The notes beneath the pieces were generated by a model, which ran no database searches, was not told the origin of the DNA, and was given only the letters and a program-made list of their open reading frames with translations. The translations under genes and the position numbers were made by a program. A stretch of 21,272 nt of DNA, taken from assembly GCF_000003605.2 (NCBI RefSeq), contig NW_003112977.1:48711-69982 (forward strand), given 5' to 3'. Positions within the stretch are counted from its first letter, which is position 1, and the number at the start of each line of letters is the position of its first letter. Source of the stretch: Saccoglossus kowalevskii (Eukaryota; Hemichordata; Enteropneusta; Harrimaniidae). Of the stretch, positions 18,401 to 19,919 are shown one piece after another.

Positions 18401-19919
18401 CGCAGCGCAACGACCACCGCCCTCTAAATGTCTTTGGTTATATTTATACTAGATCTGTGCCACCAAATGGTAAACTACTTACATCAGAATGGCAAATTAG
18501 GATGCGAGTGTCGCGAGCCTTGCAGGTATGATTATGTTTGACTGTCTCAATAAAACGATTGCAGCTAGCCCGTATTTCAAATACATTGAAGGCTGCTGAC
18601 AATGGTTGTTCAATTTTACAGTATCATTCATCCGCCATCGTCGATGCTTCGGAAACACGTCGTGATCAGTCAGCATGTATTTCTGACTGGCGGACGGTTG
18701 TACCATGAACGACATGATTTGTATTCATCCGCGAATTACTCTAAAGTTGGGTTTACTTCAATGCACGTAACGGGACTAGTGAGTAAGATTAATGCAAATA
18801 GTTTAGTCACTATTCATATATACAGTAACACTGCGATAAAGACATTCCGTTTTCGACGTTTTGAAATTCTTTCGTTTTTATGCAGAAAAATAAGTAATCA
18901 TACTTGTGATCACACGTACGGTCTAAGGGTATACATACGCCGTCAGCACATTTGAATTCAGTGTTTTTACATTCACCTTAAAGAGAAAAAAAAATTATTA
19001 TAACACTGCGATTAACACATTGTGGAATTCTTTCGTTTTTATGCAGAAAAATACAGTATTATTAAGTAAAATTACATTTATTAAAGTTCATACATGAGTT
19101 GTTGAACACACTACATAGTTTGTAATTTTATTCAGTTTCTTTCAGTCATTTACGACAAATAAAAGACAAAACTATAGAGAATATAACAAATCATCTTTTT
19201 TTGTAATATTCTTGTGTAATCGGTAATTATGAAAATTATTTCGTTATGAATTATTCTTAATATAAATTAATCTTGTCAAAATTAGTTTTTCATGATTGTT
19301 TCTCCCAAAAAACGAAAGAATTTCACAATGTCGTAAACGGAAAGTGTGGCAGTGTTTACTGTAGTAGCCCTACTCCTAGGTTTAATCTCAGACTAGTAAT
19401 ACATAATAATAGTAATTGTATTACTAGTCTGAGGTGTAATTGAGCTCATTCCTGTGGTATAGAGGATTTTCCGTACAATTGCGAGATCTCGCGAGATGCA
19501 TGAAAGACGCGCGTCGAACGTCTGCCGCAAAAATCGAACGATTTGATTTTGAACTAGAATTTCTTTATTTCGTAGCTTACATTGACCGGCCGATCTTCGA
19601 CAGAGGAATACTGCTTCCGAATACCCTTACTTAATCGAAATTGCCTATCATCAAATGTGGACAGCACATTATTAAGCATGGAAATGTCCCCGAAATACTT
19701 TCGCGTTTGTCGAATCCTACGCGATGTTTGACGCCACTACGACGCTATGACCTTTGTTTGTCTTGTTTTTACGTTCGATTTCACACATAACGCGTGATTC
19801 TCGCAGTGAACGGAAAATGGTCTATTGGACTGATGTTAATTTATTGTCATTTCATTTTCAGTCGATATAGCTACAGGATGACTACGTCACAGGCAGTTTG
19901 GCCATCCAAGAATTACACT
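7364..19919 (+). CDS. DEG/ENaC (ASC) channel subunit with four LDLa domains, 12 coding exons, 3' incomplete
   Basis: This is a plasma-membrane cation channel subunit of the DEG/ENaC family; members form trimeric, usually Na+-selective, often amiloride-sensitive channels gated by ligand, acid, peptide or force. Joining 7364-7826, 8466-8582, 9383-9499, 11125-11256, 12513-12644, 13088-13391, 14275-14381, 15986-16149, 16278-16364, 17897-18005, 18453-18525 and 19862-19919 gives 621 residues with no stop. Visible in order: cytosolic N-terminus with the HG gating motif (60-61), TM1 (about 75-97), FPSVTMCN (118-125), LDLa domains at 157-193, 196-230, 235-272 and 278-318, palm/finger with YGNCFTFN (432-439), GFVLSIHNP (479-487), a cysteine-rich domain (C525 to C601) ending in GCECREPC, and [10 protein letters not shown] (611-620). 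TM2 and the GxS filter are absent, so the gene continues beyond the window. Family assignment is firm; ligand and physiological role cannot be read from the sequence. Confidence 0.93.
7835..7915 (+). mobile_element. Fragment of a pogo/Tigger-like element end
   Basis: After TA, the sequence CACTGTAACCTCGTTATAAC and the repeated TTCGTTATA motif resemble the ends of Tc1/mariner-pogo elements (CAGT..AACCTCG type). It starts 8 nt after the exon 1 donor. No partner end was found in intron 1, so this is probably a decayed fragment. Confidence 0.45.
8466..8582 (+). CDS. Exon 2: LDLa domain 1
   Basis: 117 nt, residues 155-193, with phase-1 introns on both sides (acceptor ATTAATAG|GG, donor C|GTACGT). 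The six cysteines are 157, 164, 171, 178, 184 and 193, in the order C-IPC-YC-LCNG-DC-SEDEKNC. The acidic residues around NSEDE match the Ca2+-binding loop of LDLa modules. In other proteins these modules bind ligands or accessory proteins. Here the module follows the first extracellular strand after TM1. Confidence 0.92.
8964..9359 (+). mobile_element. C1: family-C transposon immediately upstream of exon 3
   Basis: This is collinear with the reverse complement of C2 across nearly its whole length, for example TTACAAACTATGTAGTGTGT (9225-9244). Its termini are decayed: the left shows CAGT followed by extra bases, and the right ends CGCAGTGTTATAATAAC instead of the CTG end. The right end lies within about 25 nt of exon 3's acceptor, so the element probably supplies the branch point region of that intron (inference). 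Confidence 0.75.
9383..9499 (+). CDS. Exon 3: LDLa domain 2
   Basis: 117 nt, residues 194-232, phase 1-1, the same length as exon 2. The acceptor is CTCTTTAAG|GT and the donor G|GTACGT. Cysteines are 196, 203, 208, 215, 221 and 230, with a canonical [11 protein letters not shown]a2+ loop. Transposon C1 ends about 23 nt upstream of the exon and D1 starts 51 nt downstream. A diverged inverted copy of the first 86 nt lies in intron 11 (18891-18976). Confidence 0.92.
9551..9918 (+). mobile_element. D1: 368-bp MITE after exon 3
   Basis: Imperfect terminal inverted repeats: AATAGAGGATTTTCCGTACA at the left, and the reverse complement of the right end AATAGACCATTTTCCGTACA, followed by TGCGAGA on both sides. 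It is almost identical to D2 over 368 bp in the same orientation. There is no meaningful ORF, and no target duplication could be assigned with confidence. Confidence 0.8.
10302..10446 (+). mobile_element. E1: degraded E-family copy in intron 3
   Basis: TATGAGGATATCACTAGAAC and ACGAAGACAGTACGG resemble the left part of E2, and GTGGTATTCTCGTGATAATA (10425-10444) resembles its right end. The interior differs, so this is an old or related copy. Confidence 0.45.
10574..10603 (+). repeat. Collapsed E-family end, small hairpin
   Basis: TTATTACGGTATCCTCGTAATAACC holds the E right terminus fused to a few bases of the inverted left terminus. TTATTACG and CGTAATAA form an 8-bp stem. Best read as an E element that lost its interior. 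Confidence 0.5.
10686..10767. repeat. TA microsatellite, left copy
   Basis: About 41 TA units in intron 3 followed by CACACACC. The run and its 100-nt right flank recur after the N gap, probably the same locus assembled twice. Confidence 0.9.
10873..10922. other. Assembly gap (50 N)
   Basis: Exactly 50 unknown bases, a conventional placeholder length rather than a measured distance. It lies between two near-identical blocks (10681-10872 and 10923-11122). Confidence 0.98.
10929..11011. repeat. TA microsatellite, right copy
   Basis: About 41 TA units preceded by ATGTTCA and followed by CACACACCA, matching the left copy on both sides. It lies in intron 3, about 110 nt before exon 4. Confidence 0.9.
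11125..11256 (+). CDS. Exon 4: LDLa domain 3
   Basis: 132 nt, residues 233-276, phase 1-1. The acceptor is TTTTCTCAG|TA and the donor T|GTAAGT. Cysteines are 235, 242, 247, 254, 260 and 272. The loop before the sixth cysteine, [11 protein letters not shown], is three residues longer than in domain 1. A TA microsatellite and an assembly gap lie just upstream in intron 3, but the exon itself reads cleanly. Confidence 0.92.
11312..11350. repeat. Imperfect hairpin after exon 4
   Basis: TGCATAATTAGCTAG and CTAGCTAATTTATGC are complementary apart from a single-base bulge, with a 9-nt loop. It lies 55 nt into intron 4. Confidence 0.7.
11543..11841 (+). mobile_element. B1: TTAA-flanked MITE, about 300 bp, intron 4
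   Basis: The left end AAGCGCAGTAGTCGTCGCGC and the right end GCGCGACGACTACCGCGCT are inverted repeats, flanked by TTAA at 11539-11542 and 11842-11845. The interior shares GAAGAGCGCATTGGATTGTG with B2. No transposase coding. Confidence 0.82.
12332..12412. repeat. GACA tetranucleotide microsatellite
   Basis: About 20 perfect GACA units in intron 4, ending 100 nt before exon 5. Such a run is expected to vary in length between individuals. Confidence 0.95.
12513..12644 (+). CDS. Exon 5: LDLa domain 4
   Basis: 132 nt, residues 277-320, phase 1-1. The acceptor is CATTTCTCAG|TC and the donor G|GTAAGA. Cysteines are 278, 284, 296, 303, 309 and 318. The spacing between the second and third cysteines is unusually long (11 residues), and the Ca2+ loop reads [11 protein letters not shown], with Gly-Asp replacing the usual Ser-Asp. 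The domain is still a clear LDLa module, though the least canonical of the four. Confidence 0.9.
12698..12900 (-). mobile_element. D3: internally deleted, inverted D-family MITE after exon 5
   Basis: The inverted match to D1 includes TCGCGTGGGATTCGACAAAC (about 12789-12810) and ATGCTTAATAATGT. About 165 bp of the middle is missing, and the right terminus reads GAGATCTCGCAGTTGAAAGG. It begins 54 nt after the donor of exon 5. It is more diverged than D1 and D2, so it is an older insertion. Confidence 0.7.
13088..13391 (+). CDS. Exon 6: extracellular finger/palm region
   Basis: 304 nt, residues 321-421 plus two bases of codon 422. The acceptor is CACTTTCAG|AG and the donor GG|GTAATG (phase 2). 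The exon resumes ASC sequence after the LDLa array. FYANVST-like sequence gives one N-glycosylation sequon (N358-V-S). It ends with [12 protein letters not shown] (C412, C419), the conserved cysteine pair that precedes the YGNC motif in this family. The middle is variable, as is usual for the finger domain. Confidence 0.9.
13811..14077. repeat. 28-bp minisatellite in intron 6
   Basis: Nine units begin at 13832, 13860, 13888, 13916, 13944, 13972, 14000, 14028 and 14056, with consensus TGCATCATGCATAAATTATG followed by AAGATTTA, after a degenerate start at 13811. Each unit holds the palindrome ATGCAT, and variants with ATGCAG form a TGCAT-AAATT-ATGCA inverted repeat. Confidence 0.92.
14275..14381 (+). 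CDS. Exon 7: YGNCFTFN signature exon
   Basis: 107 nt, codons 422-457 plus one base. The acceptor is TATTTACAG|G and the donor TATG|GTAATA (phase 1). The encoded [14 protein letters not shown] is a strong ASC-family signature. Phase 2 at the acceptor restores the frame from exon 6. MITE A2 begins 25 nt after the donor. Confidence 0.92.
14407..14552 (-). mobile_element. A2: TTAA-flanked MITE, inverted
   Basis: Inverted relative to A1: it shares GCTTGTTTGTAAACAATGAC and CATGCGCAGGTGACGAC. TTAA flanks are at 14403-14406 and 14553-14556. It starts 25 nt after the exon 7 donor. Confidence 0.82.
14736..14772 (+). mobile_element. B3: left end of a B-family MITE
   Basis: AGGGCGGTAGTCGTCGCGCT follows TTAA (14732-14735) and continues GCGCATG. 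No matching right end was found downstream in intron 7, so this is a truncated copy or an element whose other end has diverged. Confidence 0.55.
15524..15601 (+). mobile_element. E3: right-hand remnant of an E-family MITE
   Basis: CCGACGCGTAACGGAG, CATACTGCCTGAGTGCA and GGTATTCTCGTAATATTCTT follow the order of the right half of E2 (CCGACGCGCAGCGGAG, CATACTGTCTGAGTGCA, GGTATCCTCGTAATAACCTT). The left half is missing. Confidence 0.5.
15640..15901 (+). repeat. Two direct copies of a roughly 100-bp sequence in intron 7
   Basis: 15640-15734 and 15792-15901 share TGTGACGTAATTTTCCAAAT, CAAAAGCATG and GCGTCAG in the same order. The second copy has about 15 extra bases around GTTTAGTGACGGAATTC. They are probably parts of an older unrecognised element. 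No coding potential seen. Confidence 0.65.
15986..16149 (+). CDS. Exon 8: palm domain, GLTLILFVE to IGISM
   Basis: 164 nt, residues 458-512. The acceptor is CTTCAATCAG|GA and the donor ATG|GTAAGA (phase 0). It encodes [14 protein letters not shown] and [10 protein letters not shown], the family's G-L-x-L strand and the GFKVxIHDP-like strand, followed by the [11 protein letters not shown] strand. Confidence 0.92.
16278..16364 (+). CDS. Exon 9: start of the cysteine-rich domain
   Basis: 87 nt, residues 513-541, phase 0-0. The acceptor follows a long T tract (TTTCTCAATAG|AG) and the donor is CTG|GTATGT. It encodes LEQPWDNC and HYSYSLL, equivalent to the L..PY..C and YS...C elements of the family. 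The upstream intron is only 128 nt, the shortest in the gene. Confidence 0.9.
16717..16766. repeat. 25-bp tandem duplication
   Basis: Two units, each ending GTATTCGTGTCGCCG, at 16717-16741 and 16742-16766 in intron 9, differing at two positions by eye. Confidence 0.75.
16960..17115 (+). mobile_element. A3: A-family MITE in intron 9
   Basis: Same orientation and nearly the same length as A1, sharing GCGCATGCGTCAG and TGTCATTGTTTACAAACA. The right flank is TTAA (17116-17119); the left is CTAA (16956-16959), one change from TTAA. Confidence 0.82.
17231..17464 (+). mobile_element. E2: MITE with a tandemly doubled 103-bp core
   Basis: The left end AGGTTATTACGAGGATACC is perfectly inverted at the right end (GGTATCCTCGTAATAACCT, 17446-17464). 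The unit starting at 17231 is repeated at 17334 with essentially no difference, so the left terminus occurs twice. The unit contains a short hairpin, TCGACC...GGTCGA. The ends are embedded in TA-rich DNA and no target duplication is obvious. Confidence 0.75.
17897..18005 (+). CDS. Exon 10: cysteine-rich domain, ends at a GC donor
   Basis: 109 nt, residues 542-577 plus one base. The acceptor is CACAACAG|GC. It encodes [14 protein letters not shown] and YTKCSIL, holding cysteines 543, 547, 556, 558 and 570, the dense disulfide region of the thumb. No GT donor keeps the frame. The donor is AAG|GCAAGTG, the typical GC-AG form, giving phase 1. With exon 11 the junction reads NKTQ-D-LCHQ. Confidence 0.9.
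18006..18452 (+). other. Intron 10, GC-AG type
   Basis: The intron starts GCAAGTG and ends TTATACTAG. GC donors are a minority class of U2 introns and usually have strong matches elsewhere in the donor, as here (AAG|GCAAGT). It contains MITE B2 (18150-18423), which ends only 29 nt before exon 11. Confidence 0.88.
18150..18423 (+). mobile_element. B2: B-family MITE in intron 10
   Basis: It begins AGGGCGGTAGTCGCCGCGCC after TTAA (18146-18149) and ends CGACCACCGCCCT before CTAA (18424-18427), a decayed TTAA. It shares CCTCATACTTGTGATTTCC and the 3' third with B1. The right end is 29 nt from exon 11. Confidence 0.8.
18453..18525 (+). CDS. Exon 11: end of the cysteine-rich domain
   Basis: 73 nt, end of codon 578 through 601 plus two bases. 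The acceptor is TTATACTAG|AT and the donor TGCAG|GTATGA (phase 2). The encoded LGCECREPC matches the conserved CxCxxPC-type end of the domain. Reading frames 1 and 2 either stop or lose these cysteines, which fixes the frame and thereby the GC donor of exon 10. Confidence 0.9.
18823..19361 (-). mobile_element. C2: CAGT-ended non-autonomous DNA transposon carrying an exon fragment
   Basis: The termini read CAGTAACACTGCG (18823) and, on the other strand, CAGTAAACACTGCC (from 19361 inward). About 60 bp of imperfect terminal inverted repeat follows, including GAAATTCTTTCGTTTTT on both sides. The element is bounded by TA at 18821-18822 and 19362-19363. TA targets with CAGT ends suggest the Tc1/mariner-pogo group (inference). 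From left to right it holds terminus, exon-3 fragment, a second shortened terminus (about 19001-19058), internal DNA, and the other terminus. It encodes no transposase. Confidence 0.8.
18891..18976 (-). pseudogene. Inverted, truncated copy of LDLa exon 3 inside transposon C2
   Basis: The reverse complement matches the first 86 nt of exon 3 with 9 mismatches by eye. The match extends outward through the acceptor AG and the CTCTTTA tract (18977-18990). The frame is open to ...CDHKYDYL. Four changes are silent and five alter residues, including the fifth cysteine, which becomes tyrosine; the sixth cysteine and the donor are missing. It is antisense to the host gene, so it cannot be spliced into its mRNA. 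It is flanked on both sides by copies of the transposon terminus. Confidence 0.88.
19387..19433. repeat. Perfect 17-bp inverted repeat
   Basis: CTCAGACTAGTAATACA (19387-19403) and its exact complement (19417-19433) flank a 13-nt AT-rich loop. It sits in intron 11 between elements C2 and D2 and may be the remnant of another small MITE. Confidence 0.85.
19459..19826 (+). mobile_element. D2: 368-bp MITE before exon 12
   Basis: Near-identical to D1 with scattered substitutions, for example GAGATCTCGCGAG against GAGATCTCACGAG. It has the same terminal repeats and ends 35 nt upstream of exon 12, so it directly borders that exon's polypyrimidine tract. No coding capacity. Confidence 0.8.
19862..19919 (+). 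CDS. Exon 12: pre-TM2 WPS motif, last exon in window
   Basis: 58 nt, end of codon 602 through 621. The acceptor is TTCATTTTCAG|T and the donor ACT|GTAAGT (phase 0). It encodes [18 protein letters not shown], matching the family motif Y....S.A.WPS. In this family one or more further exons should encode the helix to TM2 and the cytosolic tail. None was found in the remaining 1353 nt. Confidence 0.91.

Follow-up and report, generated by a model that had tools for sequence, protein, structure and literature searches.

An intron of a DEG/ENaC-type channel gene (an animal ion-channel gene) of the hemichordate Saccoglossus kowalevskii holds a miniature inverted-repeat transposable element (MITE), here called C2, that carries an inverted copy of the first 86 nt of exon 3 of the same gene. 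The gene lies in a stretch of 21,272 nt (assembly GCF_000003605.2, contig NW_003112977.1, positions 48,711 to 69,982 of the forward strand), the whole of which we call the window; positions are counted from its first letter. Exon 3 is the donor of the insert, and the copy has attached to it the end and the target duplication of C1, a sibling MITE that stands beside exon 3 in intron 2. We consider it probable that C2 is a resident MITE that was patched by break repair from C1 and its flank and then closed by end joining. All comparisons were made within this one genome (572 Mb, 4,830 contigs).

Structure and donor of the insert

C2 runs from terminal inverted repeat (TIR) to TIR at 18827-19356 on the forward strand, with its bounds set by the family TIR and a rule of 4-bp target-site duplications (TSDs). 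The intron that holds it (18526-19861, forward strand, GT and AG read from the sequence) was numbered 11 in an earlier note on this DNA. The exon before it ends at 18525 and the next starts at 19862, and the joined peptides of these two exons match Pfam ASC positions 296-383 with an E value of 6.6e-8. The flanking exons therefore encode contiguous parts of the ASC domain, and C2, which sits between them, is intronic.

From the left, C2 begins with the outer left terminus of the resident MITE (18827-18892, forward strand), which carries GACGTT and ends at the junction GCAGAAAAATA. The junction with exon 3 is a 2-nt microhomology (TA, 18891-18892), read from the sequence, and could lie a few bases further right. 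Four segments on the reverse strand follow: the copy of exon 3 nt 1-86 (18891-18976, source 9383-9468); the tail of intron 2 with its splice acceptor (AAG) and pyrimidine tract (18977-18997); a copy of the TTAT target duplication of C1 (18998-19001); and a copy of the C1 terminus (19002-19073), in which C1-like derived states continue until GTGG at 19022-19025. Somewhere from 19025 to 19073 the sequence reverts to the resident MITE; position 19073 has the first derived state that resembles L029, a family copy elsewhere in the genome. The resident body and right terminus complete the element (19074-19356, forward strand). The join on the C1 side is seamless. As the earlier note had described, the fragment is enclosed by two copies of the same terminus with the same inner side, the outer one at 18827-18892 and the inner one from 19002; over 27 nt, from 18866 and from 19027, these two termini are identical.

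C1 itself is a complete insertion, inverted relative to C2 (8976-9357, reverse strand), with an intact end and a perfect ATAA duplication on its left (8972-8975) and right (9358-9361). Its bounds were assigned by the family rule, and it stands outside the 15-copy sample from which the ends were defined. We reject the suggestion that C1 had been stripped of a terminal CTG, since the end is intact and ATAA stands on both sides. A gap of 25 nt separates the end of C1 from exon 3 (9383-9499, forward strand, splice sites read), which is 117 nt long and encodes one LDLa module in phase 1-1 (Pfam Ldl_recept_a, E 1.8e-10).

The two arms, 9338-9468 and 18891-19021, lie inverted on the same contig and are complementary at 90% over 131 nt. 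Within the exon piece, 77 of 86 bases are identical to exon 3, and the translation of 18813-18977 still matches Ldl_recept_a (E 1.4e-6). The nine substitutions comprise five nonsynonymous and four synonymous changes relative to exon 3, one of which replaces a cysteine. Two of the differences adjoin each other (TTT GAA in exon 3, TTC AAA in C2), and there six of eight related exons have the C2 state, so some of the nine changes may have arisen in exon 3 itself. A plain inverted segmental duplication or an assembly artefact would explain the inverted orientation on one contig, but the edges fall in MITE sequence, only 107 nt (86 of exon and 21 of intron) are common to both places beyond MITE sequence and its target duplication, and 9 differences in 86 exon bases are too many for an assembly copy; we regard this explanation as very improbable.

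Genome searches agree with the assignment of the donor. Exon 3 with its flank found five places, namely exon 3 itself, the C2 site (90% identity, E 2.9e-43) and three others at 73-75% identity (best E 2.2e-16). The C2 piece gave eight candidates, all scored, with six of the eight places at 75-84%. Other than at C2 and the C1 locus, neither search found the exon piece joined to a MITE end; apart from the donor, the other genomic places of the insert are at most 84% identical and are without a MITE end. The searches with the C2 piece and with the family found no second genomic copy of the composite, for which the earlier note had proposed a search, with 40 of 612 family candidates scored. The claims that the piece is an inverted copy of the first 86 nt of exon 3 with its acceptor and pyrimidine tract, that exon 3 was its source and that the neighbouring C1 took part are all upheld by these data.

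A second repeat of about 370 nt, apparently a further MITE of younger age, follows closely on exon 3 (9552-9918) and again on C2 (19459-19826). The two copies run in the same direction and agree at 98% over 300 nt, and part of the repeat recurs inverted at 12753-12826.

The MITE family and the lineages within C2

The family was sampled with two queries, which gave 612 and 589 candidates, and 40 places were scored from each. C1 and C2 are among the 40 of the first query, and C1 is also among the second 40. We fetched 38 copies from the first query and 20 of 28 further copies from the second, 58 in all. For the ends, we kept the 15 of 40 rows in which each end was intact to within 4 mismatches and dropped the other 25. 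Family ends begin AACACTGCG and the TIR begins AACACTGCGATAAAGAC; flank identity outside it is highest in a 4-bp register, at 0.73 compared to 0.29 in mismatched pairs over the 15 copies, with perfect 4-bp matches in 7 of the 15 (expected about 0). The raised identity at 2, 6 and 8 bp is the same 4-bp register, nested. The family makes 4-bp target duplications, and MULEs (Mutator-like elements) have longer TIRs and TSDs than this family with its 4-bp TSD and AACACTGCG ends.

The earlier note had read C2 as an element with a TA target and CAGT ends, which the family does not bear out: under the CAGT model none of the 15 copies has TA on both sides and, of the 27 rows whose left end is good, C2 is the only one with CAGT in front of the terminus. 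Together with the 4-bp signal, these counts lead us to reject a TA target and CAGT ends as family features and speak against a Tc1/mariner-type element.

C2 has no matching 4-bp duplication around it, the flanks CAGT and TACT agreeing at 1 of 4 positions. Because several other family copies have lost their flank match too, this mismatch is not diagnostic. The wider flanks, TACAGT (18821-18826) and TACTGT (19357-19362), are the same at 5 of 6 positions read directly and also form a near inverted pair; we sought a mechanism for either arrangement and found none. A genome search for an empty site with the left flank of C2 returned that flank itself only.

The body of C2 and its inner terminus differ in their relation to C1. 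With 38 copies as background, C2 has C1-derived states at 0 of 26 body sites and at 2 of 2 scorable sites of the inner terminus (Fisher p 0.0026). When the background is raised to 58 copies, the counts become 0 of 25-28 and 1 of 1 (p 0.034-0.039), one terminus site having been lost through a different alignment. The two bodies are 0.150 apart over 299 sites, C1 comes 31st among 59 rows by nearness to the body of C2, and C2 is absent from the 40 scored places (of 589) when the element of C1 is the query.

In the tree, the C2 body is sister to L029 with support of 96/95, the bootstrap being unsettled and the values rough. It has eight derived sites in common with L029 (19073-19201), at most five with any other row and none with C1, and two of the eight states are absent from the rest of the 58 copies. 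The outer left terminus points the same way: GACGTT is found there as in L029, compared to GACATT in 33 of 58 copies and also in C1. The only other copy with GACGTT, L078, owes the string to a deletion elsewhere in its terminus. Forcing the C1 and C2 bodies together lowers the log-likelihood by 19.6. A 23-nt gap in the C2 body may be recurrent, since it is also found in L036 and lies between ATT repeats, and we did not use it as evidence. On present evidence the comparison of derived sites suggests that the body of C2 does not derive from C1, an origin that is disfavoured, and two MITE lineages within C2 appear well supported, though not proven.

Origin of the composite

Since C2 groups with L029, rather than with C1, in both its body and its outer terminus, the simpler history would be that a patch was copied into a MITE that the intron already contained. 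C2 would have been resident when a double-strand break occurred immediately inward of its left terminus. One of the broken ends would then have paired with the homologous sequence of the inverted sibling C1, 9.5 kb away, and been extended by synthesis through the C1 terminus and its target duplication, across the intron 2 tail and over 86 nt of exon 3. The strand so made would have been released and joined to the other broken end at the 2-nt TA microhomology. Such an event would be an aborted synthesis-dependent strand annealing (SDSA) completed by end joining, also termed 'gap filling' or 'repair-mediated duplication'. The stretch copied from C1 and its flank is best read as about 136-183 nt. 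The structure and the donor are directly observed; a break, synthesis in this direction and the enzymes involved are what we infer from them.

The same product could come from a stalled replication fork (fork stalling and template switching or microhomology-mediated break-induced replication, FoSTeS/MMBIR) that left by microhomology, copied exon 3 and the C1 end and returned by homology. The nearby donor and the microhomology fit this route, and the 27-nt identical stretch at 18866 and 19027 fits a return upstream of the exit point. It needs two template switches, compared to one invasion and one end joining for repair, and we consider it unlikely, although repair and a replication template switch would give products that are inseparable from sequence alone.

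The earlier note had proposed instead that a C element acquired exon sequence and was then relocated by 9.5 kb within the gene. This would be a composite transposition, in which a C1-type element employed a further end on the far side of exon 3 (end bypass) and moved to the intron. The exon piece does lie between family termini, both outer ends of C2 are family ends, and C1 adjoins exon 3, a setting that Tan et al. (PMC8277862), in their discussion of donors adjacent to transposable elements (TEs), tie to the end bypass model. Such a move requires a body derived from C1, which the sites do not show, the body and outer terminus grouping with L029. Furthermore, the C1 end is intact with a perfect TSD, the composite was found once only, and from exon 3 to the end of the window no family end with at most 4 mismatches occurs outside C2; over the whole window, there are none at that threshold (at most 4 mismatches in 17) outside C1 and C2. 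The missing 4-bp TSD around C2 also speaks against it, but is just as much a point against the host MITE having simply arrived there. The data thus leave the proposed move unsupported, and we hold end bypass to be even less likely than the fork, with the approximately unbiased (AU) test (p 0.2) still allowing C1 as the sister of the C2 body.

Several observations weigh against patching of a resident MITE from C1. The same AU test does not reject a sister relationship of the C1 and C2 bodies. For the terminus, the Fisher test has only one or two sites, and all eight sites in common with L029 fall in 19073-19201, none being in the right half of the body. Measured from C1, C2 is the 9th nearest of 59 rows, so the two are not remote. 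C1 has 26 and C2 16-17 derived sites in about 290, and the exon piece has 9 differences in 86, which suggests that the exon piece and the MITE copies are similar in age; a C1 that was copied very soon after its own insertion would therefore also be expected to share few body changes with its copy. The 2-nt TA microhomology could be chance and is not significant alone. Finally, an ordinary arrival of the host MITE is not demonstrated, as the C2 flanks show no matching 4-bp duplication.

No function of the insert is evident; the piece is antisense to the gene. The predicted RNA pairing of the exon 3 acceptor region with the C2 insert is strong (-205.5 kcal/mol; 100 single-base shuffles of the C2 strand gave a mean of -54.1 and a lowest value of -68.6), but such pairing follows from the inverted copy itself and does not speak for a function. 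The notion of a captured module useful for exon shuffling is not supported, since the piece is antisense and truncated, with five of its nine differences nonsynonymous and one of the nine replacing a cysteine. As a speculation to which we give little weight, sibling MITEs could act as priming sites, where a broken copy invades its neighbour and copies the exon past its end, so that MITE-rich introns would regularly gain antisense copies of splice sites; the C2 piece could then pair over 131 nt with the exon 3 acceptor in the pre-mRNA and affect the use or editing of exon 3.

Gene context and comparison with known systems

Elsewhere in the gene, Pfam ASC is matched at 7340-7852 and 15964-16158, and also at 17864-18010 below the curated cut-off. 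The structures nearest to the N-terminal part of the channel are those of FMRFamide-gated and acid-sensing channels. The LDLa module is matched by four separate exons (8336-12769), with the exon at 12464-12766 below the cut-off. To our knowledge, LDLa modules inside a DEG/ENaC-type channel gene are an unusual domain combination.

The window has further repeats. Two near-identical TA-rich blocks surround a run of 50 N (10873-10922) at 10662-11088 and may be an assembly artefact. A perfect tandem duplication of 103 nt lies at 17228-17433, and tandem repeats at 5167-5568 and 13741-14131 have a spacing of mostly 45 nt and 28 nt, respectively.

The event at C2 is of a known kind with close published precedents, among them an exon that was copied backwards into its own gene: in Pace et al. 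2009 (PMC2671141), an ACSBG2 exon is described as copied in opposite orientation into an intron of that gene. Their account lists 1,136 human TEs interrupted by DNA with one other copy, and 824 of these, with donors within 5 kb, are classed as repair-mediated. Like these duplications, C2 is a TE interrupted by copied genomic DNA with hallmarks of SDSA. The interruption, 107 nt plus the end of C1, is longer than the 50 bp of non-TE DNA that they take as the minimum, and the insert likewise has one other full match, its remaining matches (at most 84%) being without a MITE end. Of the join features that they use (microhomology, filler or deletion), C2 shows a 2-nt TA at one join, possibly by chance. 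The likeness is in general kind only, as the donor of C2 is about 9.4 kb away, unlike their confident proximal class (<5 kb). Two further differences from the cases described there are that this donor adjoins a sibling of the interrupted element and that one of the joins of C2 is homologous.

Tan et al. 2021 (PMC8277862) report 370 Pack-TIRs in 100 animal genomes and attribute the single-copy ones mostly to transposition-independent gap filling. In their account, donors lie within 15 kb in 56.9% of 281, and the median length of microhomology, in the cases that have it, is 2 bp. C2 resembles these single-copy Pack-TIRs in its exonic filler within a TIR element, its single copy, its microhomology and a donor less than 15 kb away on the same chromosome. 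It has non-TE sequence between the TIRs of one element, where the status as one element rests on the sharing of GACGTT and derived sites with L029. The resemblance to Pack-TIR capture that the earlier note had pointed out stands. As in plant Pack-MULEs (as described in PMC8277862), a gene fragment lies between TIRs; the donors of those elements are often on other chromosomes, in contrast to the C2 donor on the same contig. One breakpoint of C2 is near a terminus, whereas the breakpoints reported by Tan et al. lean to the interior. Unlike their set, C2 does not pass the filter that excluded donors with a TE within 100 bp, as C1 ends 25 nt before exon 3; according to these authors, end bypass cases were perhaps missed thereby. 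C2 thus exemplifies a class, with the donor beside a sibling element, that was filtered out by design in this 100-genome survey. The lineages of its host element and its donor are probably distinguishable, which points to templated repair and not to transposition. What sets C2 apart from these known cases is that its donor was seemingly primed by a sibling element.

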